A stretch of DNA of 34,151 nt from Planctomycetaceae bacterium. GTDB taxonomy: Bacteria > Planctomycetota > Planctomycetia > Pirellulales > Pirellulaceae. Made by a program: the position numbers and the translations under genes. Under the pieces are notes generated by a model. That model made no database searches and was not told the DNA's origin. It worked only from the letters and a program-made list of their open reading frames with translations. Positions 5,169 through 34,151 of this stretch are shown piece after piece (the stretch's first letter is position 1; each line of letters starts with the position of its first letter). The stretch lies in the NCBI GenBank assembly GCA_002862205.1, contig PKCN01000170.1:1-34151 (forward strand). The letters are read 5' to 3'.

Positions 5169-5296
5169 TTCATGCGGTGCTGGATCGTCAGGCAGAATGA
5201 GTACCGGGTGATGTGATCGTGATCTGCAAGTGAAACAGGTTGCCTTGGGATTGATCTGTTACCATGGTTTCTGCAAGTCAATGCGTCCTTGTTCGT

Positions 5297-5300
5297 GGAG
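5297..5300 (+). promoter_or_regulatory. Shine-Dalgarno site deciding the kinase start
   Basis: GGAG is followed by an eight-base spacer and the ATG at 5309. The earlier in-frame ATG at 5264 has no purine-rich site at a suitable distance, and the protein from 5309 begins directly with the zinc-ribbon cysteines. Confidence 0.65.
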
Positions 5301-5308
5301 ATCAGTGC

Positions 5309-10977: not shown

Positions 10978-11206
10978 CGTGAACCACCGTGAGTGAGCTC
11001 GTGGATGCTCCAAACAGTTGCACGGCATGGATTGACGCAGGATGGATCGACGCATAATGAGCACCGGCTCTCAGCAGGAAAAAAAGGAATTCATAGTCAA
11101 GTGAAATGGATCAAACAAATCCAGTGGATGCCAAGTACGACAAAACGATGGATCGAGTGTTGAACTCAGCATGGAACCACGAAGGTTGACAAGTACTGGT
11201 CAACAA

Positions 11207-12966: not shown

Positions 12967-16698
<3,732 letters not shown>

Positions 16699-18526: not shown

Positions 18527-19465
18527 TCACTCAATTTCGGGGCGTTGGCGTTCTCCGCCACCGCGACCGCCACGACCACCTTCTTCTCCACCACCGCGAC
18601 CACCACGGCCGCCTTGTTCTCCACCACCGCGACCGCCACGGCCACCCTGTTCTCCGCCACCGCGACCGCCACGACCACCTTGTTCTCCGCCACCGCGGCC
18701 ACCGAAGCCTCCGCGACCGCCCTGACCACGGCTACCTTCAGGCATCTCGAACTTTTCGCCCTTCATTTCCTCGAACTTTTTCTTCTGATCGCTGGTCAAA
18801 ACAGCCAGTACATCGCCTTCCATATCGTCTCGCATCTTTTCCATTTTCTCACGGATACCTTCGCGGCTTCCGCTGCTGAAAAGCTCACGCATGCCTTCTC
18901 GCATCTTTTCCATCAGGCCAGCTCGGACTTCCTCAAGCTCTTTTTTCTGCGCCTCAGTGATTTTCAGTTCTTTGGCAACTTCTGCGTTTTGAAGGGCTGC
19001 GATGCCTTGAAGCTGAATGTTGATTTCCTGCAAACGCTCCAGCTGCTCAGGAAACAGCACTTCCTCAAGTTGCTCTTTCATCTTGGTGGTGCGTTCCTCG
19101 GCCTGCTTTCGCATTTTCTCGATGAATTCAGTTCGCTCTTCCTCGCTCATGTTGCGGAAGTCTCCGCTGGGCCTTTCAGTACGGCCTTGCTCCTGCATTT
19201 TGGTCAGGGCTTCTTCTTGATCGGGAGAAACCTCCAATTCAGTGCGAACGGCCTCAATTCGCAGCAAGCTCATCGTCATGTCGCCACCACCGCGGCCTCC
19301 AAACATGCTTCCGCCGCCACCACCACGGCCCCCAAAGCCGCCTCCGCCACCAGCTCCACCGCGGCCGCCTTGGCCTTGCCCTCGGCCTTGAGCCATCGCG
19401 GGAGTCATCATAAACGTCAGTAGTGCGACTGATAAAAGGCCAGTCACCTTGCGAGAAAGTTTCAT
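18527..19465 (-). CDS. Secreted Gly/Arg-rich protein with Spy/LTXXQ-like helical core
   Basis: The predicted protein is 312 residues. The start at 19465 begins with a signal peptide (MKLSRK, hydrophobic core, AMA then Q), so it is exported; the frame is open further upstream. Residues about 26-65 are Gly/Arg-rich. The helical, highly charged core (about 65-235) has three spaced elements resembling the LTxxQ motif of Spy/CpxP periplasmic proteins: VSPDQ, ITEAQ and LTSDQ. The C-terminal part (about 240-308) is again RGG-rich and contains four copies of an 11-residue unit close to GGRGGRGGGEQ, encoded by 33-bp repeats. Spy-like proteins act as periplasmic chaperones or metal/stress sensors; whether this one does so is inference. 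It is a single gene with its own terminator. Confidence 0.82.
   Translation of the reverse strand: MKLSRKVTGLLSVALLTFMMTPAMAQGRGQGQGGRGGAGGGGGFGGRGGGGGSMFGGRGGGDMTMSLLRIEAVRTELEVSPDQEEALTKMQEQGRTERPSGDFRNMSEEERTEFIEKMRKQAEERTTKMKEQLEEVLFPEQLERLQEINIQLQGIAALQNAEVAKELKITEAQKKELEEVRAGLMEKMREGMRELFSSGSREGIREKMEKMRDDMEGDVLAVLTSDQKKKFEEMKGEKFEMPEGSRGQGGRGGFGGRGGGEQGGRGGRGGGEQGGRGGRGGGEQGGRGGRGGGEEGGRGGRGGGERQRPEIE
18551..18682 (-). repeat. Four 33-bp in-frame coding repeats (RGG-rich)
   Basis: Four adjacent 33-base units, starting at 18551, 18584, 18617 and 18650, encode the 11-residue GGRGGRGGGE-x unit. A degenerate fifth copy follows to the right. The copies differ mostly at synonymous positions. 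Confidence 0.88.
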
Positions 19466-19736
19466 TGATTCATTATCCAGAGTGAGCTGAGAAGTCGTCA
19501 TTGCGCAATGCATTTCCAACTCGGTGCAAAAGTACAAAGATACATTACAAACCTGCGGACCACTGCGGGGTTTCGGCCTATGAAAAAAAACATGGTATTT
19601 TCCCCGAGATGGGTCATTATGCGGCTTTTGAGGCAGCTTTTTCCGAACATGTAATCCTTAATGGGGTCGTGTTCGAGCTGGGCTACCTGTCACGTGCCCA
19701 CCCGCAAGGCACAGGGGACCCTCTGCCTCTGCTATG

Positions 19737-20033: not shown

Positions 20034-21317
20034 TCAGCTGTCGATGCATGTTTCCAGGAATCTGGCCAAGCGATGGAAATCACTATCTTGCTCGATAAAG
20101 CGAACTTTGGTGACGAGAGTTTCAGGATCGACTAGTTCCTCAAAGGGAACGTAGTGCAAATCCAATTGGCCTGATGCCGAAACCATGACTCCGTTGAGTT
20201 TTTCCTCGACCAGAGCACGATAGGCACCCACTCCCAGTTGGGAACCAAGCATCACGTCATAGGCGTGAGGGGGGGCACATCGGGATTCGTACCCAAGTTG
20301 CAATCCATTGATTTTGCGGGTGCGATCGGTTCGCTCGTTGTAGCGTTCACTCAGCAGTTTGGCGAGTAACGCGGACAGATTGATTGAGGAGATATTGATA
20401 TGTCCGTGGTCATCACGGCTGACACCCTCGAGGTACTTGGTTGGGAGGTATTCCGCCATGCCTTCTGCGACCACGATCGTGCCATACTCTCGACCTTCGC
20501 GTTCGCGGGCCATCATCATGTCAACCATGCGGTCAATCACGCGATCCAAAGCCATCACCTTTCGGGTTTCACCTGTCTCCTGGTTGACCACTTCTTCTTC
20601 GGCCAGCGAGCCAGTGACATCTTCCACACTGAGAACCATGCTGGCTTCACCGGCGATCGCAGCACCGTAGGCGAGCCAACCAGCGCTTCGGCCCATCGCT
20701 TCGCACAGAAAGTAAGCTCGGCCGGCAGCTGCATCGTAGTTCAGGTTCCGGATTTCTTCGGCCAGTGTTTCGACAGCGGTGAAGAATCCGAACGTGAAGT
20801 CGATGCCTGAGTAGTCATTGTCGATGGTTTTGGGCAGGTGAATGACAGGGAATCGACGAGCATCCTCAGGAAGATTGTCCTGGAATAATTTCATCTTGTT
20901 GGCTGTTTTCAGTGTGTCATCACCGCCGATTGAAATCAAAGCGTCGACTTCAAGTGAACACAGGCCTTCGTAGACGCGACGTAGCGGAGCTACCAGTTCA
21001 GCGTCTTTGAGGTGTTCCGGAGCACTGACGTGTTTGCCAGGGTTGGTTCGAGCCGTTCCGATCATGATTCCACGACTGCTACGCGCGTGCGTCAACGTAT
21101 CGTGGGTGAAATGGATGTAGTCTGCACCTTCCTGCAGCGGGCCGGCTGCGGTGTATTCAGCCAAGCGGCTATAACCGTGCTTGATGCCAAATACCTGAGC
21201 GCCTTCTTCAAGAAATGAGAAGGCTGCAGTCGAGATCACGGCGTTGGCTGCCGGTGCAGGGCCCCCGGCAAACAAAATGGCAACGCGTTTGATATCCAAC
21301 GTGTGGTGGTCAGGCAT
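20034..21317 (-). CDS. pfp: Pyrophosphate-dependent 6-phosphofructokinase
   Basis: This cytoplasmic glycolytic enzyme interconverts fructose 6-phosphate and fructose 1,6-bisphosphate, here using PPi as phosphoryl donor. The 427-residue protein has the phosphofructokinase fold signatures AILFAGGPAPAANAVI near the N-terminus, GGDDT (131-135), PKTIDND (162-168), EAMGRSAGWLA, and GYESRCAPPHAYD near the C-terminus. The second Asp of GGDD (residue 134) and Lys163 of PKTIDND are the residues known to mark PPi rather than ATP use; ATP enzymes have GGDG and PGTIDND. The reaction is then reversible. The start at 21317 has no clear ribosome site, but the frame and the conserved N-terminus support it. 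It is a single gene between two long gaps. Confidence 0.95.
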   Translation of the reverse strand: MPDHHTLDIKRVAILFAGGPAPAANAVISTAAFSFLEEGAQVFGIKHGYSRLAEYTAAGPLQEGADYIHFTHDTLTHARSSRGIMIGTARTNPGKHVSAPEHLKDAELVAPLRRVYEGLCSLEVDALISIGGDDTLKTANKMKLFQDNLPEDARRFPVIHLPKTIDNDYSGIDFTFGFFTAVETLAEEIRNLNYDAAAGRAYFLCEAMGRSAGWLAYGAAIAGEASMVLSVEDVTGSLAEEEVVNQETGETRKVMALDRVIDRMVDMMMAREREGREYGTIVVAEGMAEYLPTKYLEGVSRDDHGHINISSINLSALLAKLLSERYNERTDRTRKINGLQLGYESRCAPPHAYDVMLGSQLGVGAYRALVEEKLNGVMVSASGQLDLHYVPFEELVDPETLVTKVRFIEQDSDFHRLARFLETCIDS

Positions 21318-21801: not shown

Positions 21802-22410
21802 CTACCAGTCCAGCACAAGCGACCACGAATCATCTCGACTTTGGTGCTGGATCAGAATTCGATCCGCATACCGAGTTTGATTCGTCATTACCTGCTTTGC
21901 ATCGATGTAGCCGCCTCTCTGCAGAACGAGGCTTGGTTTGATGTTGCTGGGGGCAGATACAGCAGCCTCAACAATGCATAGGTCATCACTGAAGGTTGCT
22001 CCCAGTTCACTCGCATCATCGATCACTCCGTTGACATTATCGTCCACGTCGATGGTTCCAGGTTGTTGATCCAGTCCGGGAAGCAGGCGAACACGAGCTG
22101 CCGGATCGAACTTCTGCCAGATCAATTGATGATGGCTGAAAATTTCGGGGTTGAGTGAACGCAGATCACTCTGAATCCGGGCCCATGTCGCACGATCCAG
22201 ATCTTCGCCAGCCTGCTTCATGTCCCCAAGCTGATTCCGCAGCTTTTCCATTTGCGATTCAACTACCTTGGAATCGCTTGCAATTCTGTTGGCTTTTTGC
22301 AGGCCGGTGGTGCGGATGAAGATACCGAGTATCAAGGCAAAGACGGCACACACCAGAAAAAACTTCGTGGAACGCGTTTCCTTGTTCATAACGGGATCAA
22401 CTGCGTTCAT
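21802..22410 (-). CDS. Small membrane-anchored coiled-coil protein, last gene of pseudopilin operon
   Basis: The predicted protein has 202 residues from an ATG at 22410, which follows the stop of the preceding gene by seven bases; a TTG at 22437 would overlap that gene. A single hydrophobic helix at about residues 16-34 (FFLVCAVFALILGIF) is followed by a charged coiled-coil-like segment (about 40-80) and a C-terminal domain. It contains an acidic motif, VDDNVNGVIDDASELG (about 119-134), similar to motifs in the two preceding genes. No prepilin cleavage motif is present. A single N-terminal helix plus coiled coil recalls inner-membrane assembly proteins of type II/IV systems such as GspM or PilO by topology only; I see no sequence evidence for that identity. 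Confidence 0.7.
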   Translation of the reverse strand: MNAVDPVMNKETRSTKFFLVCAVFALILGIFIRTTGLQKANRIASDSKVVESQMEKLRNQLGDMKQAGEDLDRATWARIQSDLRSLNPEIFSHHQLIWQKFDPAARVRLLPGLDQQPGTIDVDDNVNGVIDDASELGATFSDDLCIVEAAVSAPSNIKPSLVLQRGGYIDAKQVMTNQTRYADRILIQHQSRDDSWSLVLDW

Positions 22411-22417
22411 ACCGGCA

Positions 22418-24541
22418 TCACTTGCCACGATATTCAACGGATGCCTGTCGCACGAACCGCAACGAAGGATTTTCCAGCCGCACTGTCACCCGAACTGCTT
22501 CGGCTTGATTAAGAAAGGGTGCGAGCGTTTCGCGTTCATTGAAATCATCGACGCCAAATTGCAGGTCATCATCAAGACCGTTGGCACCGCGATCGACCGT
22601 CACAGTGTCGTTGCCTTGGATGAACGTTGTCCACAGTGAACCTCGACTGTTGGGATTCACCATCCCCTGGTAGAAGCCGTCTTTTTCATAGGCCGATGTG
22701 TAGGTATCAAACGCAGGCTGAAACAGTACCACGTTCTGTCCCGATGTCACCATCCGGCCTGAGCGTAACAAAGCGTTTTGATACGCGGTGCGCGGATCTG
22801 CCGTGACTGCCCGGATCCCGGAAAAATCAGATACTACAACACCAGACATGCGGTTCTGGGGATCAGTGAAAACAAAGTCACTGTTACTACGGCGGTCGAG
22901 TCGGCGCGGTTGCCAGCCACGCATCGCTCCACCTGCAAGCACAGGGTAAGCCAAGTCAACAAAGGCACCATTCTCGCGTTTTGTGACAACATTGTTGTTG
23001 AGCCACGCTTGAACGGCATTTCTGTATCCGGCATCTCCGGGGCCAACTGTCTCTTGCATCACTGTGCCGTTGGCATCAGCTGGATTATCGCTGAGAATTG
23101 CAACACTGGGGTCGAAAATCTGTACATCAAAGCCGAGTGCATTGTTGGTGACCAGATCCTCACCTATCCGTTGCAGGCCCCAATTGTCATTTGGATCGTT
23201 GATATGGGTCAGGTCGTTGCCAAGCACAAATTCGGGACGAATGAAACCACTGAGCCAATGGGGCGTCACAATCGTGGCGGTTGTGGGTGTGTTGACGGGA
23301 GCCAGTCTCGTTGAATCAGGTGTGACCGCTGAGAGAATCGTAGCGGGACCCCCGAGAGCAAGCACTGGCATGGAAGTCGGGTAAGCGTTGGTGCTACCTG
23401 CCAACAGATTTCCGGGGGCTCGTACATGGGCGAAGCGGTTGTGAGGTTTGCTCAGGTCAGCCAGCGAATTGGCAGCGATCAATCCACCTGACACAGGTAG
23501 TCCGTTTTCGGCAAGGATTCGACGGACAGATAAATCGCACTGCTGATGAACGCCTGCCATCCCGTACAACCAACCATCAGCAGCGTTTGCAGTGCCCGTC
23601 ACGGTCGGTGTCAATGCATTCGCGTTTGGCCAGTCATCGGCCCGCATGAAGTGGTGGGTGCTGCCATTGGCAAGCGTCTTGTTGTTTTGCGGTAAAACCC
23701 CGCCATAGTTGGCATACAGACCTGTATTCAGGTTCAGGTCGGGGCGAATCAGCAGGACTCGCCGGTGGATCTTGATGCGGTCAGGTAACCCATTCTGGGT
23801 TGCGGCTCCAATTCCAAAATCGGTGTCTCCATCTACGTCCAGATAGGCAGGAGATGCAGGCAATGATCCAGGTGCGTACTCCGGGCTGGCAAAGTAAATG
23901 ATTTCGGCGTACTTGGATGTGATGGTCACTGCATCGAACGGGTCGCCTGCAAAGTTGGCGGGATCGTAGGCATCACCAGCCAGTTCTGCTGTTTTCCGGT
24001 TCAAGATGTACCGTGGAACTTTACCCCGGAACCATTGGCTGCCTTTGGCCACTGCCGTGAAAGCAATGTAGTCATCGAAGTCGCCATAACGAGCGTCTTT
24101 CAGTTGCAGAGTTCCAGAGGAATTGTCTGCCCGGAAGAGCGATGAGGTTGCGTCGGTGACGGGGCCTTCGTAGTACAGGAAGTAACCGTTTTGATCTTCT
24201 TCCAAGCCGGTGTTGGGCTTCAATTCAACGGTGCACTGTCCAAGGTCATCCTGCAGTTTTGTCGTGACATCCCTCAAACTGGTTGCCAATTGTGTATCGG
24301 CTCGGCTTTCCTGTATCTGTGTTCCCACATACGCAAAGGCGCGCGCTAAAGCAGCCATCATGAGCAGCGTGACTGTCATTGCCACCAGCATCTCGACGAG
24401 GGTGAAGCCTGTACGAGGTGCGCGATCTCTTATATTCGTCGATGAATGTTGTGTCGGGTGCATCGGATCATGTTGCTCATGGTTGTCGCGATTCATCGCG
24501 ATTTGTTTCATCATGCTCTGATTCTTTTTGCATTGCGTCAT
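22418..24541 (-). CDS. Large prepilin-like protein, GspJ-type position
   Basis: This 707-residue protein has a type IV prepilin N-terminal signal: RTG, then FTLVEMLVAMTVTLLMMAALARAF, with predicted cleavage between Gly45 and Phe46 and the conserved Glu at mature position 5. A prepilin peptidase would cut and methylate it, and the mature hydrophobic helix would pack in a pseudopilus. GspJ is usually about 200 residues; here a domain of some 600 residues follows. Near its C-terminus (about 645-677) is an Asp-rich element including GANGLDDDLQFGVDD and then NERET. The ATG at 24541 overlaps the stop of the previous gene as ATGA, implying coupled translation; internal ATGs at 24514, 24496 or 24463 would give a more usual leader length. 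The GspJ assignment rests on the N-terminus and the gene order. Confidence 0.8.
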   Translation of the reverse strand: MTQCKKNQSMMKQIAMNRDNHEQHDPMHPTQHSSTNIRDRAPRTGFTLVEMLVAMTVTLLMMAALARAFAYVGTQIQESRADTQLATSLRDVTTKLQDDLGQCTVELKPNTGLEEDQNGYFLYYEGPVTDATSSLFRADNSSGTLQLKDARYGDFDDYIAFTAVAKGSQWFRGKVPRYILNRKTAELAGDAYDPANFAGDPFDAVTITSKYAEIIYFASPEYAPGSLPASPAYLDVDGDTDFGIGAATQNGLPDRIKIHRRVLLIRPDLNLNTGLYANYGGVLPQNNKTLANGSTHHFMRADDWPNANALTPTVTGTANAADGWLYGMAGVHQQCDLSVRRILAENGLPVSGGLIAANSLADLSKPHNRFAHVRAPGNLLAGSTNAYPTSMPVLALGGPATILSAVTPDSTRLAPVNTPTTATIVTPHWLSGFIRPEFVLGNDLTHINDPNDNWGLQRIGEDLVTNNALGFDVQIFDPSVAILSDNPADANGTVMQETVGPGDAGYRNAVQAWLNNNVVTKRENGAFVDLAYPVLAGGAMRGWQPRRLDRRSNSDFVFTDPQNRMSGVVVSDFSGIRAVTADPRTAYQNALLRSGRMVTSGQNVVLFQPAFDTYTSAYEKDGFYQGMVNPNSRGSLWTTFIQGNDTVTVDRGANGLDDDLQFGVDDFNERETLAPFLNQAEAVRVTVRLENPSLRFVRQASVEYRGK

Positions 24542-27500
24542 TGTGCGTAGCTCTCAAAGATGACCACATCGCGAGCATTGAGGTCTTGCCCAGGTGAGAA
24601 TCCGACCGGAACTGAGCGATCGATCACAAACGTGCCCTGATAACGTTGGCTTCTGCCGATTTCGGCGTTGTATTCACGACCCAGCGATTGTGTGGCAGAA
24701 TCAATTTCGAAAAAGCCGACTGTCATTCGTAGCAGAAATACCTGCGAGTTGTCTGAGACCAGGTTTGGCATTCGCATCAGGGTCTGTTGTCTCATGAACG
24801 GGTTGCGAAGTCGATCGAGCGCGGGGTTGTTGCCGCCTGTCGTGATGGGCACCTGATTCGCTCCACGAACAAACAACGGATTCTGCGCAGGGGTCGTTGC
24901 CGTCAGATTCGCGGTGTCTCTCATGAGTCCACCGTTGACCGAAGTGCGTCGTAGTTGATTGCGCGAGCCATTTTGCCCAATCCTGCTGGCACGTGTCTGG
25001 ATTGCCTTGTCCGCATGCACACCGGGCCGGAATGCGCCACCAAACTCGGTCGGGAAATCTGGGTCCAGATGATCAGGGTCGTAGTTGTAAGGACCGGCAC
25101 CGTCAGTCACTTTGTTCGGATTCGGAGCGCTGGGGATCTGATAGCCCCGGCGGACACGACGGAAATTGTCGTAGGCAAGTGGGCCTGCGGAGGCGTTCGG
25201 TGAGCTGAACTCGTTTGCCGTCATGTGACCCTGCATCAAGCCCGCCCATACTGGAAACTTGGACAGGGTGTTGAGATTGATTGTCCCCTGGCGGTGATTG
25301 TCGTACTTGATGTTGAAAGGATTAGGCAGTAACGAAGTAAACACGGGCGGCAATTCACGCGGATTCAGTCGTGTCGGGCTGATCAACTCAACCTCGCCTC
25401 TGAACCTCGGCAGTGTATTCACGAAATCGAAAACTCTCGCAAATTCCATTCCCGCGCCGGGTGAGTTGCTGCTGTGGAAAAAATTCAGTAAGTGTCGAAA
25501 CGGTGCGTTGACGACAGCCGGTTCCTGATCGTTGGTGCCATCACAAAATACATCGGAATCACCCGCCAGATTGAATGAGAGTTCCTCGAACAGGCGACCT
25601 TGTGAACAGGCCGGCACCATCATGATTTCCATGGCAGACGCGAAGGGGCGATTCAGCCAAGGATGGACCGCATATGGCCTTTGCGGCAGGTTGCGATCAT
25701 TTCCAACCACGCTGTCAGAAGCAGGTAAGCTGCCAAGCGTGGGGGCAAAACCGGCGAAGTTTGGATTGACGTCGGTTTGTGCCGTATTGAGGAAGCTGAA
25801 TGATGACTGCAGGTGTTGCGAGTCCTCAAATTGGAAGAAATCGTTTGCTTGGTTGCTTACCGAGACATTGGGTGAACGGAAGTCGGTTTCATAAGAGTAC
25901 AGCGAGTTGGCAGATACCGAACCCCCGTTGCCGAGCTGTCTGATATGACCATTACGCTGTCTGCTGCGTCGGGTGTAATCACCCGCTCCACTGATTTTGT
26001 TTTGTCGATCTTCACCACTGAATACGGTCAGGTCGATTGGCAACCAGTCAACCGTTCGATAAGGGTTGGTGATCGCGTTGTAAGGTTTGGTGGGATCAGC
26101 CAGACGTTGCAGCATGGCGGAACAGTAATCTTCAATCGTACCCAGCAGTGGTTCATTATTGGCATTCGGAATGCGACCCCGATTGATGTCCAATGGGCTG
26201 TCTCTGGCTGTCTTGGCTTTGCTGGGGTCCGAGTAATCAAGGTAGGCATCGGTCAGGAAATAGTCCGGGTCGCCATCGCCATCGAAGTCGGTGTCAGCTG
26301 TTTCGAAATATTGGAACTCTGGTTGAGGGTAATAGTTGCCACCGCGAGGCAGCGGCTCAGATACATTGATGCCGACAACATTCTGAGCGAGGTTGGGATG
26401 GTCCTGGGCCGGGATCGTCCAGCCTGTGGGGCGTGGTGCGGCAATCACAAGGGGTAACGCTGCCGTACCCACTTCACCTGCAGCGGCAAGCGTGGGTGTC
26501 AGACGCTGGTCGCGTTGGTCGGACTGAACCAGGCCTTCGTTGGGAAAGACCACCCAACGTTGATCGCTTGGGCCGGCGGGTTGACCATTGGCTGCCTTGG
26601 ATCCAAACCGCGTTTCCAGGCGTGGAGCTAGCGTCAGAAATTGTCCCGGTTCAAGATGACGATCTGAGTTCGTGACGTTGTCCTGGTCAAACGTGGGAGC
26701 GATGAAGACCTGATTGGCTGACATGTCATTGATGTTGTTCGTGCTGATCACATTGCCAATCGCGTTGAAGGCGGCGTTGGGATTGGTGTCGGCGTTGCCA
26801 ATGTTGGTGAACCAGATGAATCGGTCGTATGCCAGCCTTGTGTCCTGAGCCAAACTGCCATTTGGATCGAGCTCATTGGGTTGTGGCAACTCGAACGAAG
26901 CAGTGTCGGGTAACCGGCTTGCAAAGCTGGGTTCACGCAAACGCCCTGGTGACAAATCTCTCTGTGCGGCATCCGCGTTTTGATCGTGCCGCTCGGAAAT
27001 GGCTATCCGCCATACCGGAGCCCCATCTGCACCGCCTGCCGCACTGGGCGCCCTGGCATCGAGCTTCAGTTGAACAGGGGCGTTGCCTCCCACTTGTTGA
27101 TACAACTCCATCGGAAATCCAGGCTTGGTTGCCTGATCGTTGAGTTGAGTGGAGTGAGGGCAATAAAGTTCCAGAAATAAAGAACCTTGAGGCATCCGTA
27201 CTTGATCGGAATCATTATCCGGGTCGTCATTGGCGTCTTTGGTTTTTCCCGGCCCATTATCACGTTTGTCGTCGCGTAAGCGTACATCGTGAAAGGCCAT
27301 GCTCTCGCTCAAAAGCAGCTCAGGCGATTCCACCCCCCAGACCACGAATTCAGCAGAAGCAGGGTTCGTGCTCAGGTCTGCTGGGGGATTCCAGCCAGTG
27401 GCATCGAAGGGGTCGGAATCAAACACAAAGCGTGTCATGATTGAGTCGGGGTCGCGATAATCAACCACATTCACGGCCCATTGTGCCAGACGCCTCGCCT

Positions 27501-30099
27501 TGTAGGCTTCCGCGTTCGAACCGATATCGTTGAACGAACGATTGGGATCGGTAGGCGGAAAGAATGATTCTTCAGAATTGTGTTGTGCGTTAATGTCCCG
27601 GCTCAGGGCCATCATCAGGACGTACAAGTGTCGGGCAAGAAGTTGCCGACCTTGAACCGGTAACCGGTTTATCTGTAGATCATTATCTTCATCCCAACGG
27701 TAATTGGGAGTTGCATTTGCAAAATCATTCGGGATTGCGCCAGTCACTCCATTGGTGAGCTTGAATGCAGACTTCTCGCCCATGTCTCCATCAGGATCTT
27801 GGCCGTCGATGCTGCCGTCCAAGTCGTTGTCGAAACCGTCGCGACTGGCGAGATTTGCGTGGACAACTTCCATCGGTTCATCGATGACCAGATTGTTATT
27901 GTCGTCCACCATGTTGCCGATGGCCCGATTGACATCCAGTTTGCGTCCCAAACGCAGTTCCGGTGCCACAAGTTCCGCCATTTTGGCATTGTCGTAGGTC
28001 GTGGCACCGTTGAGACGCTCAATCAGGTCTTCAAGCGCAAAAGTGGGATGATCGCTGGATGTACTCTTGGCCGTGAATGCGTGTTCGTACAAAAGCTGAT
28101 CCGGGTGGTTCGGGTCGTTGTTACCACCAATCAACGACTGCAAACGTTCCCGGAGTTCCGCTGGCAGTAATTCTGAATCAAAGTCGTTGGAACGCAGAAG
28201 TGCTTCCAGGTCAGATACTTTGAAGTTGGTGTCGCCACTCAGGTTACCGGTGGGATCCTGTTCGTAGGGAGTGTTGTAAGATTCGTCCAAGGGGACCGCA
28301 GTTGGTTGGCCAGCCACCAGTACGTGCCCACTGCGTCCAATGGCCGTCCCGTTTTTCCCAAACGGATCAGTGCCATAACCGAAGCCACCCATGGCAGTGT
28401 GGTGCGACGGGCGAAAACCAGACAGCAATGCGTCGACCGCATCTCGACCGTTGCGGCCAACTTGGAAGACGCTCCCGCGTTTTTCGTGACCATACTCATA
28501 GCGGGCATTGACCGCCTTTTGCAAACTTGTGGCGTTCACTCCGCTGACATTCGCCAATTGCGGAATGGTGATTTCTGCTGGCCCCCATCCGAGGCCGCGA
28601 AACAGATTGATTGCGGGGGTCTGAGCTGAGCCAACCGCTGCTGCCCATTTTGCCTGCTGATTGGATTGGAGCCCTGCGGTACCGATCAGTGTGTTGAGTT
28701 GAACGTTGCTGTGAGCATTGAGATTCAATCGCGCGCCAAGATCCTCGATCATGGGTGCGACAAGAGGACGAATCAATTTTCCTTCGCGGGTGATGAACGG
28801 GGGCAGGCCAACGTCAACCCAAACACTATCAGCTGTTCCGTCACCATCGTTGTCGACATCCCACTCGCCACTGACCAATGCTTGCAGTAACTGATTCAAC
28901 CGGGCTGGGTTGGTACCCACAGGCAGGGCGGTGCGAAGTGCATACTCGGGACTGCCACCGGTGAACCTTTCATTGATCGAGGGCGAACCATTCCCCAGTT
29001 GGTTTTTGGCGATTGGCAATGGGCGAAACGTGGCGCGCTGCAAACTGGCCATCAATTGATTGAATTCCTGTCCAGTTGCATTGGACCAGTCGGGTGATTC
29101 ATTGATCAGGTAATTCAAAACTGCAGGGCGGTGAAACGATGGAATGACCGTACCATCATCGCGCCGCAGACTGAGCCACCAGTTGTTGTGATCGGGTGCA
29201 TCGTAGTCCTCGTCAAAGTCGCCGGGCGTTTGGCTCTTGTCAACTTCGCGACCCATGTGATTGGGCTGCAATGAAACTGGTAGCCCTGTGAAACCCGCAT
29301 CCTGAATTGCCGTTCCGGGTATGGTCTGTGCCAGTTCTGCTACGTCCGCGATTGACTCGTTCAGATTGTTCCCATCAAAACCGACCCCCGCTGAATTGCG
29401 AGGAGCACCATTGAGAACAAAAGTGAAACCATCCTTGGCAATGTCAGTCGGATCTTCGTAGAAGTAACTCAAAAGATTGCGAAGAGTCGCTCCGCTGGTC
29501 ATGCCAGCATCGTCCAAGTCGATGTACAGATCATCCCACTCGGTACCGGCTTGCAGCTTGTGAACTGACCTCATTACTTGGTAGGTGCGGTTGGCAAGCG
29601 GGCCACTGGTGAAGGTGACTAACCTACCGGCGTACACGTCATTCTGCCTCGGCAAATTTGGGCGGGCGCTGCCATTGGTGGTGGCTGGAAAACGTACGAA
29701 CCCAGTGAATCTGTCTGCGGTATCAGACAGTTCGTCCAGTGGCCAGTTGTTGGGATCTGAGACCCCCAGGAGTTGTGGGCCGAGAATGTATTGGTTGATG
29801 TTTTTGACCTGCAGGGATAGGCCATCGTGGCCATAGAAATCACTGAGCAGGTCTTCACCGTAGAACGGATTGTTGGGGTCGTCGGTGCCACGTACCAACG
29901 TCATCAACGCTTCGTTCATGATCCAATTGACATCGGGCTCACGCGTGCTGCGTTTCGACAGTGCCAGTGATGCATCCCGGGACTCGTTGCTGAATACCAG
30001 ATAGGCAGCGACAAGAATGCTGAAGAACGTCAGCGAACTGAGCACGACTAACAGGATCACACCCCTGCGATTGGTCGTTCGTTTTTCGTGTTGGTGCAT
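24538..30099 (-). CDS. Giant GspK-like pseudopilin
   Basis: The predicted protein has 1853 residues from the ATG at 30099; a GTG at 30165 would add 22 and overlap the preceding gene. The N-terminus is RRG, then VILLVVLSSLTFFSILVAAYLVF, a prepilin-like signal with cleavage after Gly13. Mature position 5 is Val, not Glu; loss of Glu5 is characteristic of the GspK minor pseudopilin at the pseudopilus tip. GspK is normally about 330 residues, so this is more than five times larger. Calcium-site-like acidic loops occur at about 414 (DVDNDGDGTADSVWVDVG), 730-745 (DDNNNLVIDE) and 752-775 (FDNDLDGSIDGQDPDGD). The remainder is rich in Asn, Pro and Asp and looks extracytoplasmic. No protease or carbohydrate-binding domain is recognisable to me. 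Confidence 0.82.
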   Translation of the reverse strand: MHQHEKRTTNRRGVILLVVLSSLTFFSILVAAYLVFSNESRDASLALSKRSTREPDVNWIMNEALMTLVRGTDDPNNPFYGEDLLSDFYGHDGLSLQVKNINQYILGPQLLGVSDPNNWPLDELSDTADRFTGFVRFPATTNGSARPNLPRQNDVYAGRLVTFTSGPLANRTYQVMRSVHKLQAGTEWDDLYIDLDDAGMTSGATLRNLLSYFYEDPTDIAKDGFTFVLNGAPRNSAGVGFDGNNLNESIADVAELAQTIPGTAIQDAGFTGLPVSLQPNHMGREVDKSQTPGDFDEDYDAPDHNNWWLSLRRDDGTVIPSFHRPAVLNYLINESPDWSNATGQEFNQLMASLQRATFRPLPIAKNQLGNGSPSINERFTGGSPEYALRTALPVGTNPARLNQLLQALVSGEWDVDNDGDGTADSVWVDVGLPPFITREGKLIRPLVAPMIEDLGARLNLNAHSNVQLNTLIGTAGLQSNQQAKWAAAVGSAQTPAINLFRGLGWGPAEITIPQLANVSGVNATSLQKAVNARYEYGHEKRGSVFQVGRNGRDAVDALLSGFRPSHHTAMGGFGYGTDPFGKNGTAIGRSGHVLVAGQPTAVPLDESYNTPYEQDPTGNLSGDTNFKVSDLEALLRSNDFDSELLPAELRERLQSLIGGNNDPNHPDQLLYEHAFTAKSTSSDHPTFALEDLIERLNGATTYDNAKMAELVAPELRLGRKLDVNRAIGNMVDDNNNLVIDEPMEVVHANLASRDGFDNDLDGSIDGQDPDGDMGEKSAFKLTNGVTGAIPNDFANATPNYRWDEDNDLQINRLPVQGRQLLARHLYVLMMALSRDINAQHNSEESFFPPTDPNRSFNDIGSNAEAYKARRLAQWAVNVVDYRDPDSIMTRFVFDSDPFDATGWNPPADLSTNPASAEFVVWGVESPELLLSESMAFHDVRLRDDKRDNGPGKTKDANDDPDNDSDQVRMPQGSLFLELYCPHSTQLNDQATKPGFPMELYQQVGGNAPVQLKLDARAPSAAGGADGAPVWRIAISERHDQNADAAQRDLSPGRLREPSFASRLPDTASFELPQPNELDPNGSLAQDTRLAYDRFIWFTNIGNADTNPNAAFNAIGNVISTNNINDMSANQVFIAPTFDQDNVTNSDRHLEPGQFLTLAPRLETRFGSKAANGQPAGPSDQRWVVFPNEGLVQSDQRDQRLTPTLAAAGEVGTAALPLVIAAPRPTGWTIPAQDHPNLAQNVVGINVSEPLPRGGNYYPQPEFQYFETADTDFDGDGDPDYFLTDAYLDYSDPSKAKTARDSPLDINRGRIPNANNEPLLGTIEDYCSAMLQRLADPTKPYNAITNPYRTVDWLPIDLTVFSGEDRQNKISGAGDYTRRSRQRNGHIRQLGNGGSVSANSLYSYETDFRSPNVSVSNQANDFFQFEDSQHLQSSFSFLNTAQTDVNPNFAGFAPTLGSLPASDSVVGNDRNLPQRPYAVHPWLNRPFASAMEIMMVPACSQGRLFEELSFNLAGDSDVFCDGTNDQEPAVVNAPFRHLLNFFHSSNSPGAGMEFARVFDFVNTLPRFRGEVELISPTRLNPRELPPVFTSLLPNPFNIKYDNHRQGTINLNTLSKFPVWAGLMQGHMTANEFSSPNASAGPLAYDNFRRVRRGYQIPSAPNPNKVTDGAGPYNYDPDHLDPDFPTEFGGAFRPGVHADKAIQTRASRIGQNGSRNQLRRTSVNGGLMRDTANLTATTPAQNPLFVRGANQVPITTGGNNPALDRLRNPFMRQQTLMRMPNLVSDNSQVFLLRMTVGFFEIDSATQSLGREYNAEIGRSQRYQGTFVIDRSVPVGFSPGQDLNARDVVIFESYAQ

Positions 30100-30154
30100 G
30101 ACAGTAATCTCGGTGCGGTGATGAGAAGAAAAGAGAGATTGAGTCAGTTCAATG

Positions 30155-31582
30155 TTACAGGTCACTCAGTTTGACAATTCGTTCAGTGACTGAGACAACA
30201 CCCTCGACCATCGTGGCATAGGTGTTGCTTGAAAACGGGATGGTTGCCGGGTTGCCAGGGGCGTCAGCAATGATGTACGGCGTCCAGTTGTTGTAGACGG
30301 CATTGTTACTGGTGCTGTACGAGTTCACTTCCGGAGTCGTGGCGTAACCACTGGGATAGTTGAAGTTCCAGTCAGGACCATCAAGGGTGATTTTCTGGAG
30401 CCAGACGTTGTTGGTGAACCCGCTCGGGGTAATGCCGCTGTCTGGCGGCGGGTTTGTTGGTGTGTAAAGCGTGCCCGCTGCATAACGCTCTTCCTTGCCG
30501 TCAACGCTGACCACTCGATACCAGCGGTGGTAGTCAATCAGCTTATCACTCGCGATTTGTGAAAAACGGGAAAGCATGATCCAACTGCCGGGCAATATCT
30601 TGGGCACGGTGTTGGCGTTCGACGCCAGATGCACGATGCCACCCGCACCACCATTGAAGCCACTGGCATAAGTGACGTAAGCCAGACGCTCACCAATCGC
30701 GTTGCCTTCCGCGGTGGTTGGTGGATTCGTGTTGTTTGAAGCATCGAAGGATCTCAAGCGGCGACGAATGACAACCACTGAAACGGAAGCATAGACGCCG
30801 CCGGGCAATGGATTGACGGTCGCGATCCAACTGTATTCGCCACTGGGAATTCGCTTGCCATATTCCAAGCCTCCGGTGACCGGTGCTACCTGACCACTTT
30901 TGAAAGTTGCTGGTAGCGACTTGTCAGATCCACGAGTGATGATCAGGTCATCCTGATTTTCCGTCAGACGCAATGCTTCGGTTACATTGATGAAACGAGT
31001 GAAGGTCGAGGATGAATCTTCCTTGACGCCCACGCGAAACATTCGTGGTTGTCGCGTTGGCCAACTTGTCGAGTTACCCGAAGAGGGATCTTTCATCGGG
31101 TCGTGATTCTGTTTGAAATAGGGGAAGCAACCCACGTAGTAACTGTTAGGGGTCAAGGCGTTGTAGGGTGTGCTCATGAGCGAGGCGCACATCGGGTCAA
31201 TGCAGAACGAAGGGGTGACAGGCGGCGGGTCAATCCCTTGGAGAACCTGTTGGTAATAATTCAGAGGGAAGGTTGCTGGGAACTCCGGGCCACCTTGCAG
31301 GTCGGGATTACTTTCACCGACTGCTGACGGATCGATGGCACCAAAGGTGATCGCTCCCAGTCGATCGTCTGCCAGAAACTTATTCGCCAGCAATTGTGCT
31401 TGTACGTTATTGGCGATCACGGGAGCGACGCTGAGGCTGATGGAGTCCTGTGCTCGTTTGCCCGCTAGTGGCAGGATTGACAGTAAGCCCAGCAATCCGA
31501 TCAGCACCACACCGATCGAAAAAATTACCTCGACCAGAGTGACTGCTTTGCGGACCGATCGTGTTAAGTATGGTTTGCTCAT
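30155..31582 (-). CDS. Prepilin-like protein, GspI/PilV type
   Basis: This 475-residue protein has the N-terminal prepilin motif RKA, then VTLVEVIFSIGVVLIGLLGLLSILPLAG. Cleavage is predicted after Ala13, with Glu at mature position 5. The hydrophobic helix with its internal Gly-Leu-Leu-Gly-Leu-Leu pattern fits GspI/PilV-type minor (pseudo)pilins. GspI is about 125 residues, so most of this protein is an extra C-terminal domain of unknown fold. The start codon overlaps the stop of the previous gene as ATGA (31579-31582). Ala rather than Gly at -1 is less usual for prepilin peptidases. Confidence 0.8.
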   Translation of the reverse strand: MSKPYLTRSVRKAVTLVEVIFSIGVVLIGLLGLLSILPLAGKRAQDSISLSVAPVIANNVQAQLLANKFLADDRLGAITFGAIDPSAVGESNPDLQGGPEFPATFPLNYYQQVLQGIDPPPVTPSFCIDPMCASLMSTPYNALTPNSYYVGCFPYFKQNHDPMKDPSSGNSTSWPTRQPRMFRVGVKEDSSSTFTRFINVTEALRLTENQDDLIITRGSDKSLPATFKSGQVAPVTGGLEYGKRIPSGEYSWIATVNPLPGGVYASVSVVVIRRRLRSFDASNNTNPPTTAEGNAIGERLAYVTYASGFNGGAGGIVHLASNANTVPKILPGSWIMLSRFSQIASDKLIDYHRWYRVVSVDGKEERYAAGTLYTPTNPPPDSGITPSGFTNNVWLQKITLDGPDWNFNYPSGYATTPEVNSYSTSNNAVYNNWTPYIIADAPGNPATIPFSSNTYATMVEGVVSVTERIVKLSDL

Positions 31583-32829
31583 TCGATGTCCACCGTGTCA
31601 GCGAAATTGGCCAGCAGACGTGCCTCGGTGATCGCTTGATCGAGGGACGCGTCATAGGGATTGATGACTGCCGCCGCTGGTATCGACGAAACCGATGAGA
31701 AGGGTGCAGAAACGACACGACCGGTTCCTGGGTTGATTACGATCCACTTGGATTCCAGGTTCACCAGGTTCGCAGGCGCCTTTTTCTCTGACGTAAACAG
31801 GTTATCGGGCCGGATTCCATCGGAGTCACCAAGGCAGAGGAAAATTTGTCCCTGAGGGAATGAGGGGACGTCACTGATCGCGCTGGTAATTGATGCGACG
31901 CCACCATCGGGTCCAAACACGATGTCGATCGGCTTGGCATTGGCACCGTTCTGAATCTCGGTGGGCAGTGGCGACGGAGCGAACTCGTTACCCTTCATGC
32001 CAGTGCCGGAATAGTTAAGGTCAATCGCGACACCCCGGGGCAGAGAATACGGTGCAGCGGTTGAAACCACAGGGCGTCGATGAATCTTGTATTTGATCCG
32101 TCGACCACCCGTGGGAAAAATCGGATTGCCTGAGGGAAACGATTTTGTACCCGCCGTTTTCATCTCACTAAGATCAAAAAACAGTCTGACAGGAACAGTT
32201 GGTGCGGCGTTTTTGGCACGGTACTGAATCTTGAATGGGACCAGACGTCCACCGGGCAATTCAATGAAATCGCCACTGCGAATCGGGGCACTTGGGTCAT
32301 CTGCCGCTTCTGACTTGGGCGTCAGGATGTAGCCCGGTTGGGTTGAGTCGGTGATCTGGAGTGCTGCATTCTGGGCGACCATGCTGGCGCTGAGCGTTAG
32401 CAAGGCATTGTCGAACGGATTGAACTCAGCAATCGTGACATAGGACAGATTGGCGTTGGTGTATCCCGTGTTGGTTTTGAGTATTGCAAATGAATTGGAG
32501 GCGTCACCGGTGTAAGGTGGCACGCTGGTCAATTCGCGAACACGAATGGATTGAGCCCGACTGACGGGGTCGAGCGCATTGAGTCTCTCCAAGCGTATTC
32601 CAACAAACTTCCCTTCCGCGATGGCCCGGCTACGGGCTTTGTCCATGTAAGCCGATAAGTTTCGGGCCGTTTTGGCGATCTGCTGGTTTGCAAGCAGGTC
32701 TTTGACCGTTGGCAATGCTACTGCCGCCAGCAGCACCATGATCGCAAGAACGATGAGCAGCTCGACCAGTGTGTACGCTGCTCGGCTGTAAGGCGTTGTA
32801 CGCTTCGTTGATGTATTTGCAGGAATCAT
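31579..32829 (-). CDS. Prepilin-like protein, GspH/FimT type
   Basis: This 416-residue protein has an N-terminus running SRAA, then YTLVELLIVLAIMVLLAAVALPTV. Cleavage is predicted after Ala18, with Glu23 at mature position 5. After the hydrophobic helix, KTARNLSAYMDKARSRAIAEGK resembles the amphipathic 'L...L..ARS.AI..' segment typical of GspH/FimT. GspH is normally about 170 residues. Its ATG overlaps the stop of the upstream gene as ATGA (32826-32829), and its own stop overlaps the next start in the same way, so it sits in a translationally coupled chain. Confidence 0.82.
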   Translation of the reverse strand: MIPANTSTKRTTPYSRAAYTLVELLIVLAIMVLLAAVALPTVKDLLANQQIAKTARNLSAYMDKARSRAIAEGKFVGIRLERLNALDPVSRAQSIRVRELTSVPPYTGDASNSFAILKTNTGYTNANLSYVTIAEFNPFDNALLTLSASMVAQNAALQITDSTQPGYILTPKSEAADDPSAPIRSGDFIELPGGRLVPFKIQYRAKNAAPTVPVRLFFDLSEMKTAGTKSFPSGNPIFPTGGRRIKYKIHRRPVVSTAAPYSLPRGVAIDLNYSGTGMKGNEFAPSPLPTEIQNGANAKPIDIVFGPDGGVASITSAISDVPSFPQGQIFLCLGDSDGIRPDNLFTSEKKAPANLVNLESKWIVINPGTGRVVSAPFSSVSSIPAAAVINPYDASLDQAITEARLLANFADTVDIE

Positions 32830-34091
32830 CGTGGCGACACCTGCAGTTGATAGTTAGTGATGTTGTCGGTGACTTCGTTGACGGAAGTTGTGGTCGGACG
32901 CAGTTGCCCAGGAAGACGTCCAGCAAACTGACCATTGTTCAGATTCGCGCTGACGAAGACGCGAAGATACGGATCCGGAAAGGCGCGTTTGGCCTCGCCA
33001 CCTCGACTGGGGAGCTCTTCGCCGTAGAAAGGAACCGTTGTCGGCCACCACCAATTCAATGCCTGGTAGTTGTAATTCGCCATTGAGACTCCCGCTGCGG
33101 TGATCGGGTCGGTCGTGATTCCGTATTCCCCGTCGGGGCCAGCGGAAAAGACGAGGGGACGCATCGACCATGGTTTGACCGTTGCATTATTGACAAAGTT
33201 AAGTCCCGAAATCACGTCATAAGCTCCCGCTGAGGAACTGGTGCTGTTGGGCACTGTGGTGTAGGCATAGTCGGATCGGAACAGATCGAATTCATCGGGG
33301 ATTGTTTTATCAATCGACAACTCCGGATCGAAATAGCCCACAGGCCAGCGGATGAAACCCAATGGATTTCCCCACCCATCCAGAATTTCCCGCAGTCCGT
33401 CATTGTCGGTGTCGCCGATATTGGCCGCAGGAATAGCCTCCAGCGCGGGTGAGCCTCCCACAAACGAAGTTGCCATGATCAGGTACAGGCACTCGGCTCC
33501 CTGATTGGCAAGGGCGCCGGGGCTATTGAGTGTTAGTCCCACAGGCATGCGGTTACGGTAGGCGGCCAGACGTGATGGAATGTTGTCACCACCATTGAGG
33601 AATGTCGCGTTGGGTGAATACCATGACACAGTCATGATTTTCCGCTGGTTCTTCTGATCGCGCGTATTGACCACGTTACCAGAGTTGTCGATCAGCACCT
33701 GATTGGTGGCTGCGTACATTTGTGATGGGGCGGTAGTAATGTCCGAGAGACGATCCGGCAGTTCCATCCGCTGCAGGTCTCGAGTCATCATCAATCGGAC
33801 CCGTGCTGCCTCAGTTGCAAGCACTTCCAAACCCACTTCTCCCGCACCACCATTGACATCAGTGAACATGTCGGGAATCTCAACAGGAAGTTGACGATAC
33901 TTCAAGTTGGCGTAGCGTTCTGCCAGTACGCTGTCGATCAGTGAAATGATCGTTTTTGTGCGTGACTGTTTCGCTGTCGTCGTTACCCCTGAAATAGCTG
34001 TCGTCACCATTGCGCCCATGATCGAAATGATCACGATCACGACGAGAACCTCGACGAGTGTGAATGCGGTTTTCGATCTCTGATGATTCAT
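32826..34091 (-). CDS. Prepilin-like protein, GspG-type (first gene of operon in window)
   Basis: The predicted protein has 421 residues from the ATG at 34091, which has GAGG nine bases upstream (34101-34104); a TTG at 34121 would add ten residues. The N-terminus is SKTA, then FTLVEVLVVIVIISIMGAMV, with cleavage predicted after Ala9 and Glu14 at mature position 5. In its second half, DTDNDGLREILDGWGNPLGF resembles the conserved (D)PWGxPYxY region of the major pseudopilin GspG, next to its calcium site. GspG is about 145 residues, so this version is roughly three times larger. The gene is followed by GspH-, GspI-, GspK- and GspJ-like genes. Only 60 bases of leader are visible, so the operon may begin outside the window. 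Confidence 0.8.
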   Translation of the reverse strand: MNHQRSKTAFTLVEVLVVIVIISIMGAMVTTAISGVTTTAKQSRTKTIISLIDSVLAERYANLKYRQLPVEIPDMFTDVNGGAGEVGLEVLATEAARVRLMMTRDLQRMELPDRLSDITTAPSQMYAATNQVLIDNSGNVVNTRDQKNQRKIMTVSWYSPNATFLNGGDNIPSRLAAYRNRMPVGLTLNSPGALANQGAECLYLIMATSFVGGSPALEAIPAANIGDTDNDGLREILDGWGNPLGFIRWPVGYFDPELSIDKTIPDEFDLFRSDYAYTTVPNSTSSSAGAYDVISGLNFVNNATVKPWSMRPLVFSAGPDGEYGITTDPITAAGVSMANYNYQALNWWWPTTVPFYGEELPSRGGEAKRAFPDPYLRVFVSANLNNGQFAGRLPGQLRPTTTSVNEVTDNITNYQLQVSPR

Positions 34092-34104: not shown

Positions 34105-34151
34105 GGGTTTCTTGCGGACAACGACTCAACGGTGCTTATTCCTTCAACTCG

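Follow-up and report, generated by a model that had tools for sequence, protein, structure and literature searches.

Greatly enlarged pilin-like proteins in a planctomycete operon: a probable type IVa-like pilus and its candidate giant tip

Introduction

How would pilin-like subunits of up to 1853 amino acids (aa) pass the gate of an outer membrane, and to which machine do they belong? These questions are raised by a stretch of 34151 nucleotides from Planctomycetaceae bacterium (GenBank assembly GCA_002862205.1, contig PKCN01000170.1; the whole stretch is hereafter 'the window'), in which positions 21802-34091 of the minus strand hold six co-oriented genes, encoding proteins of 421, 416, 475, 1853, 707 and 202-211 aa. 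We named them G2, H, I, K, J and X, after the subunits of type II secretion systems (T2SS) and type IV pili (T4P) whose positions they occupy (table 1). A preliminary description of the locus had reported prepilin N-termini on the first five, with sizes and an order that our analysis bears out, and had read them as pseudopilus subunits, each a short helix extended by one large domain, and possibly parts of a distinct surface or periplasmic machine.

The answer that we favour, and consider likely, is that the giant minor pilins stand in for PilY1 as the ligand-binding tip of a type IVa-like pilus. For the puzzling uptake of whole macromolecules by planctomycetes, the operon offers candidate genes in the genetically tractable Planctopirus limnophila. 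The modular-pilin principle, so far one of individual subunits, would also come to cover an entire tip complex.

Results and discussion

Extent of the operon

The window is one entire contig (C56, 34151 bases). Its end and the end of a second contig of the same genome, C275, have 123 identical bases in common, and a protein search located residues 1-41 of the G2 frame on that end of C275. In the same direction, C275 encodes proteins of 585 aa (PilB-type, E1), 385 aa (PilT), 570 aa (PilB-type, E2), 478 aa (PilC, F) and 397 aa (a pilin, G1); Pfam places T2SSE on the first three, with MshEN also on the two large ones, then T2SSF and N_methyl. Three relatives show the same gene order unbroken, each on a single contig (L046, L048, L049). 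The end overlap and the intact order in these relatives thus indicate a locus of 11 genes, truncated by the window: as judged from these sequences, the full operon is pilB1-pilT-pilB2-pilC-G1-G2-H-I-K-J-X, and the window holds its downstream three fifths by length. The 'six-gene operon' of the preliminary description is accordingly correct as to the six co-oriented genes and too short as to the operon. It had also proposed a search for linked GspE, GspF and GspD genes past position 34151; ATPases and a platform do lie there, on C275, but they are of the type IVa pilus (T4aP) type, and no secretin accompanies them.

ATGA overlaps occur at the G2/H, H/I and K/J junctions, and a promoter and terminator scan gave counts no higher than the shuffled expectation. 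Relative to near relatives, ratios of non-synonymous to synonymous change (dN/dS) are 0.046-0.085 for G2, H and I, 0.048-0.066 for K and J, and 0.20-0.29 for X, all rough values, as synonymous change is near saturation (pS 0.51-0.69). On these ratios, the five pilins are under purifying selection.

Table 1. Features of the enlarged pilin locus in the window.
Feature	Positions	Strand	Remarks
G2, enlarged GspG/PilA-like pilin	32826..34091	-	421 aa, ATG at 34091
H, enlarged GspH/FimU-like minor pilin	31579..32829	-	416 aa
I, enlarged GspI/PilV-like minor pilin	30155..31582	-	475 aa; sits between H and K
K, giant GspK/PilK-like tip pilin without Glu5	24538..30099	-	1853 aa, ATG at 30099
J, enlarged GspJ/PilW-like minor pilin	22418..24541	-	707 aa
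X, small membrane-anchored protein	21802..22437	-	211 aa from TTG or 202 aa from ATG at 22410
Contig-end overlap with C275	34029..34151	no strand	123 bases, exact; operon runs on upstream there

A type IVa-like machine

The genes upstream of the window indicate which machine is concerned. In comparisons with sequences of the PDB, PilT (2ewv) gives 349 bits for the 385-aa protein, and GspE or PilB at most 132. E1 and E2 score 482 and 533 bits to PilB of Myxococcus xanthus (3jc8), versus 387 and 401 to GspE, a comparison that carries less weight for our reading in that PilB has the advantage of longer chains in the PDB than GspE. F scores 268 bits to PilC (3jc8) versus at most 58 to GspF fragments (Pfam T2SSF, E 2.9e-62). 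Since the operon contains PilT, and since its ATPases and platform match T4aP proteins best, the system is probably a retractile, type IVa-like pilus and not the pseudopilus first proposed. The two full-length PilB-type ATPases on either side of pilT (L045:420-5566) form an arrangement that is kept as far as P. limnophila.

Other parts of such a machine are found elsewhere in the genome. PilM (PilM_2) is encoded on contig C166 as a protein of 719 aa, about twice the usual length. In a relative, G017, the genes of C166, PilM included, share a contig with the operon, PilM lying approximately 12 kb upstream of pilB1; this orthologue scores 97 bits to M. xanthus PilM and is followed by two proteins, of 596 and 703 aa, that Pfam does not match (L228:6920-13196), a region that runs off the contig in the genome of the window (C166:11721-15791). 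The alignment parts of the machine at the inner membrane may thus be enlarged too. Peptidase_A24, the prepilin peptidase family, is above its cut-off at three loci in the genome. The likeness to a T4aP machine hence covers PilB, PilT, PilC, PilM, a prepilin peptidase and an H-I-J-K minor set with a K lacking Glu5, whereas the subunits of the operon are two to six times larger, pilB is present twice and PilY1 was not detected.

A T2SS-like pseudopilus, whose enlarged pseudopilins would stay periplasmic and push exoproteins out, would fit the gene order G-H-I-K-J, which is close to gspGHIJK, and the N-terminal matches of H, G2 and J to Gsp models; the pilus of the source organism is a prediction from its genes. 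Likeness to GspG-H-I-J-K extends to the N-terminal helices, and K is GspK-like through short orthologues described below; the operon differs in its PilT, in having no linked secretin and in pilins of 416-1853 aa. Neither a secretin nor a PilM/GspL-type match was found on C275 or C56 (GspC and GspM were not searched for), and T2SS are described as having arisen from T4aP upon loss of PilT (PMC10191384, in the part concerned). Moreover, the genome has a separate T2SS-type cluster on contig C22, with a secretin, GspE, pilins of 150, 181 and 170 aa and a K-like protein of 334 aa; the 150-aa pilin matches Pfam T2SSG (4.7e-26), the 334-aa protein has no Pfam match, and the labels H, I and K are positional there. 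The enlarged set is thus not simply the T2SS pseudopilins of the cell, and a T2SS-like function of the operon seems unlikely to us.

Pilin signatures

Prepilin sites are present in G2 (A^FTLVE), H (A^YTLVE), I (A^VTLVE) and J (G^FTLVE). K begins with RRG^VILLVVL, a basic-Gly-hydrophobic segment without Glu5, like GspK. X lacks a prepilin motif; its N-terminal segment is hydrophobic. The Pfam N_methyl score exceeds its cut-off for G2, H and J, whereas I matches weakly and K not at all; no other Pfam domain is above its cut-off in these window proteins.

As wrong-pair controls gave E-values down to 2e-7 in profile alignments (hhalign) from the helix alone, only matches extending past the helix were counted. 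Against three GspG-type proteins of canonical size, G2 aligns over residues 1-67 (E 9e-14), with further weak collinear segments at 266-325 (E 4e-4) and 401-416 (E 0.3); weak collinear segments past the helix are common to G2/H and canonical proteins. Alignments to single Escherichia coli Gsp proteins are confined to the N-terminal part, and a PDB sequence search with the G2 profile returned N-terminal helices only, plus two chance matches. Counterparts from another family of the class (f18) align past the helix for J (38-480), H (11-378) and G2 (3-253), and over 6-69 only for I. In window I, TIGR02523 PilV is matched in the N-terminal part only, under the cut-off (E 6.6e-4).

The H family matches TIGR01708 gspH in all 18 members and TIGR02596 Verru_Chthon D in 17 (E<=0.001), both scores of window H itself being under the curated cut-offs. 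The second model belongs to the Verru_Chthon cassette A-D (TIGR02600, 02598, 02599, 02596), to which other subunits show some likeness: J matches C in five of ten proteins scanned (one of the ten a false J), N-terminally for window J, and a short K orthologue matches A near its C-terminus (E 4e-5). Against this likeness, matches are under the curated cut-offs wherever scores were shown; window K has no Verru_Chthon match, and a TIGR02600 search of 40 relatives gave none above the cut-off and one weak match, on a different contig from the operon. No paper naming the cassette was found in open-licence PMC text.

The iterated hidden Markov models (HMMs) of four families, G1, G2, H and X, did not stay separate from one another, and families were then set by position. 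The X family, under the weakest constraint of the six, was called by its HMM in 10 of 80 loci, many of which stop short of X. A motif, DGLPGxAxVDDGxNGxxDxxxELGATGSDD, recurs in this family, and a somewhat similar acidic stretch lies near the C-terminus of J.

The giant subunit K

K measures 1552-2899 aa in 15 loci of the same taxonomic order (longest frame taken, start codon permitting) and 1578-1881 aa in five loci of f18, where the order is G1-G2-H-I-J-K as far as visible. In four more distant loci it has only 809-947 aa, next to pilins of 149-293 aa, and these four short orthologues match NCBIfam NF037980 GspK with E-values of 1e-6 to 5e-12, under the 130-bit cut-off. When window K was aligned with a short-K alignment, residues 411-683 matched at 97% (E 1.4e-11), with further collinear segments at 1-70, 872-891, 1599-1622 and 1766-1830, each weak alone (5-37%). 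An alignment of mid-size K proteins (the five f18 loci and L215) matched residues 7-1853 (E 2e-75), and the control comparison of the K and J families gave 2.6%. Such collinear segments along the length of K suggest that sequence was inserted at several points rather than a single domain added to a helix. On this evidence, K looks like a GspK-type tip pilin of outsize length with insertions between segments, and the helix with one large domain of the preliminary description is not supported for it.

The same description had found no match for the added parts, and this is largely upheld. Beyond N_methyl, no Pfam domain is recognised; a PDB sequence search with the K profile gave no match; and a fairly confident AlphaFold2 model of K 422-1621 (predicted local distance difference test, pLDDT, 80.4; predicted template modelling score, pTM, 0.87) and a moderate one of J (pLDDT 73.2, pTM 0.80) resemble no solved structure, which is what the proposed single-protein predictions yielded. 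In the J model, residues 48-101 form a helix of 54 residues, and two strands (683-690, 697-704) lie close to the C-terminus; a pilin core inside J and K is not confirmed by structure. Thus, according to these models, it stands that most of the added mass is without recognised match, at the fold level too. What has to be amended is that short K orthologues are GspK-like, and that one of them carries a lamin-tail domain (PF00932 LTD) above the Pfam cut-off (36.2 versus 34.3 bits; E 8.5e-9). For window K, such a domain is suggested by sequence likeness only, and no claim is made for it.

K also matches D.[DN].[DNS][GA], a loose pattern for acidic loops that may be calcium loops, eight times, where 0.85 matches are expected in shuffles, and none of 300 shuffles reached eight.

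Conservation in planctomycetes

Forty genomes, that of the window included, were searched and 19 relative loci were fetched. The preliminary description had suggested a check of gene order in relatives, and the order is indeed retained: G1, G2, H, I and K stand in series in 18 of the 19 loci, the last of which stops at a contig end inside H. A K-family scan of named genomes then gave 214 relatives, 80 of which were kept, with loci in Rhodopirellula, Rubripirellula, Blastopirellula marina, Roseimaritima, Bythopirellula and others. Where the flank was sufficient, the other families were found at high rates (I 54/60, H 46/51, G2 38/42, G1 37/39, F 33/35, E2 11/11); these counts take the best-scoring gene of a family on K's strand of the locus and not strict adjacency, and the loci with misses are L107, L109 and L121 (K copies outside pilus operons), L126, L160, L170 and L153. 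Among sampled genomes of the phylum, the K profile matches 85 of 392 (E<=0.001), or 63 of the 217 of good quality, many over the N-terminus or one segment only. One candidate J, L062:17948-19981, matches squalene-hopene cyclase models, and the later J alignment excludes it.

Three paralogues of K, of 1778-1851 aa, lie outside any pilus operon (L109:9902-15442, L121:4387-9942, L107:9896-15232), and a copy of this kind at >=74% identity occurs in 3 of 22 genomes of the genus. The neighbours of the L109 copy are four sulfatases (Pfam), a GFO/IDH/MocA oxidoreductase, a GDSL esterase and two MauG-type peroxidases; the L107 and L121 copies are flanked by genes with similar N-termini, sulfatase-like by N-terminal likeness. 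The presence of K paralogues among sulfatase-like genes lends weak support to a role with polysaccharides, weak because sulfatase genes are common in this group.

A giant tip and its possible ligand

The model for M. xanthus has PilY1 and the minor pilins prime the machine, exit through it and form the tip, and GspK and PilX, which lack Glu5, are placed at or near the tip (PMC7541494, in its parts on priming and tip). By analogy, the prepilins of our operon would be cleaved, H, I, J and K would form a priming and tip complex with K at the extreme tip, and PilB and PilT would drive extension and retraction, respectively. Added sequence, in K above all, would account for the growth of the minor pilins, in the manner of known modular pilins. 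H, I, J and K together amount to 3451 residues (approx. 380 kDa), presumably for the most part free to bind a ligand. This tip would take the place of PilY1, which was not detected; its absence from our searches and the huge H-I-J-K set are what lead us to infer that the giant minor pilins are both priming complex and ligand-binding tip. The ligand may be an extracellular polymer, which retraction would pull to or through the outer membrane, the least certain step of the scheme.

Whether such mass can pass a secretin was doubted in the preliminary description. This argument is weakened by the modelled exit of the M. xanthus tip complex but keeps some force, as bulky sfGFP fusions jam the same machine (PMC7541494, in the part concerned).

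Modular pilins offer the closest precedent for the proposed growth. In Streptococcus sanguinis PilB and PilC, Thermus thermophilus ComZ and GspK, extra mass is likewise carried on, or inserted into, a pilin, and modular pilins are established as adhesins; by contrast, an entire minor set is enlarged here, and the most extreme multi-domain case in the corresponding section of that paper has 860 residues (PMC8179133).

Several results weigh against a giant tip on a type IVa-like pilus. Foldseek searches of the PDB with the models of K (part) and J returned nothing below E 0.001, although proteins with multiple inserts can defeat such searches and the result is no proof of new folds. Window K matches no GspK model, and E. 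coli GspK aligns with it over the N-terminal helix only; longer K forms of 1091, 1638 and 3215 aa matched no NCBIfam model, GspK included; LTD is above its cut-off in a single short orthologue, two others being weak or not significant; and I has no likeness to its counterparts past the N-terminal part (hhalign). J is found downstream of K in only 24 of the 44 loci with room for it. On the side of the machine, PilN, PilO and PilP could not be identified, and the 596- and 703-aa proteins that follow PilM have no Pfam match. The genome has six secretin matches, none on C275 or C56, and none could be tied to the operon; of two compared with the PDB, the one on C172 scores best with GspD, and the score of the one on C64 gives no clear best class. 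Finally, the PilY1 family was found nowhere in the genome of the window and in one of 40 genomes, but in none of 14 control genomes either, so that the power of the search rests on a single relative match. That sole match (L230, G010:C125) comes from a genome marked as 8% contaminated.

Most of the evidence for a ligand-binding tip would equally serve a T4aP-like pilus used mainly for surface attachment, rosettes or twitching, with the giant tip as an ordinary adhesin. Modular pilins and PilY1 are known adhesins (PMC8179133, PMC10191384, in the parts concerned), and both attachment and rosettes are described for planctomycetes of this family (PMC8303584, likewise in part). In P. limnophila, however, dextran-gold is described mainly on fibres of large crateriform structures, whereas holdfast and stalk are tied to the small ones (PMC5394234, sections on fibres). 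We see attachment as the main function as a credible possibility, though one that we do not favour.

Uptake of DNA is a further function to be weighed: the minor pilin ComZ, whose pilin sheet carries a large inserted domain, is believed to bind DNA (PMC8179133, in the section concerned), DNA-uptake pili of Vibrio cholerae use PilT (PMC6668835), and the enlarged tip could be a DNA receptor, as proposed for Thermus ComZ. We found no positive sign of a competence pilus (DNA-uptake genes were not searched for), and the fibre data point to polysaccharide, which makes this function quite improbable. In the main text of PMC6668835, neither 'planctomycet' nor 'PVC' occurs.

Capture of polysaccharide by a giant pilus tip is, by analogy with the fibres of P. 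limnophila, plausible. This organism forms 12-nm pili-like fibres, some attached to large crateriform structures, that bind dextran-gold; in the same sections, the crateriform structures are called enigmatic and the uptake system for macromolecules uncharacterized (PMC5394234). A 2025 review advances the hypothesis that such pili act as fishing rods built of pilin-like proteins (PMC12078418, in the passage concerned). Fibres that cross the envelope, likened by the authors to T4P, formed on algal medium in Rubripirellula lacrimiformis K22.7 (PMC8303584, part on fibres), which we infer to be our operon-bearing relative G003.

Among our genomes, G360 corresponds to P. limnophila, as the first 500 bases of its second contig are identical to the DSM 3776 plasmid NC_014149.1. 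Its chromosome carries the operon, with E1 (565 aa), T (373), E2 (577), F (419), G1 (352), G2 (384), H (363), I (468), J (566) and K (1611), X not being called by the family HMM. A typical T4P has a diameter below 12 nm, and enlarged pilins might explain the width of the fibres. The organism with dextran-binding fibres is thus one that carries the operon; the sections on fibres do not name the fibre genes (PMC5394234), and the link that we propose would join the two. In its full form, the proposal is that the operon encodes the planctomycete fibre system, a thick retractile pilus whose K-J-I-H tip binds polysaccharides and whose PilT reels whole polymers into the enlarged periplasm, the K genes of sulfatase islands supplying alternative tips; as a whole, we hold it as tentative and rather doubtful. 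In open-licence PMC titles and openings of abstracts (subscription papers and preprints being outside this scope), no description of the operon or of an enlarged minor-pilin set in planctomycetes was found among the matches listed.

Other genes of the window

Eight further window proteins submitted to the Pfam scan were unrelated or without match, and none was Gsp-type. A phosphofructokinase gene (20034-21317) of unrelated function follows the operon, as it does in three relatives of the genus (L066, L071, L075). SecA usually has approximately 900 aa; that of the window (12967-16698) has 1243, its SecA domains being spaced apart by extra sequence, and seems to be a further core protein of increased size. 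Positions 7990-11064 encode a 1024-aa protein with a C-terminal CHAT (caspase-like) domain, downstream of a gene for a protein kinase (5264-7846) on the opposite strand, and a 336-aa protein (18527-19537) combines an LTXXQ match with a glycine-rich C-terminus bearing repeats of the GGRGGRGGGEQ type.

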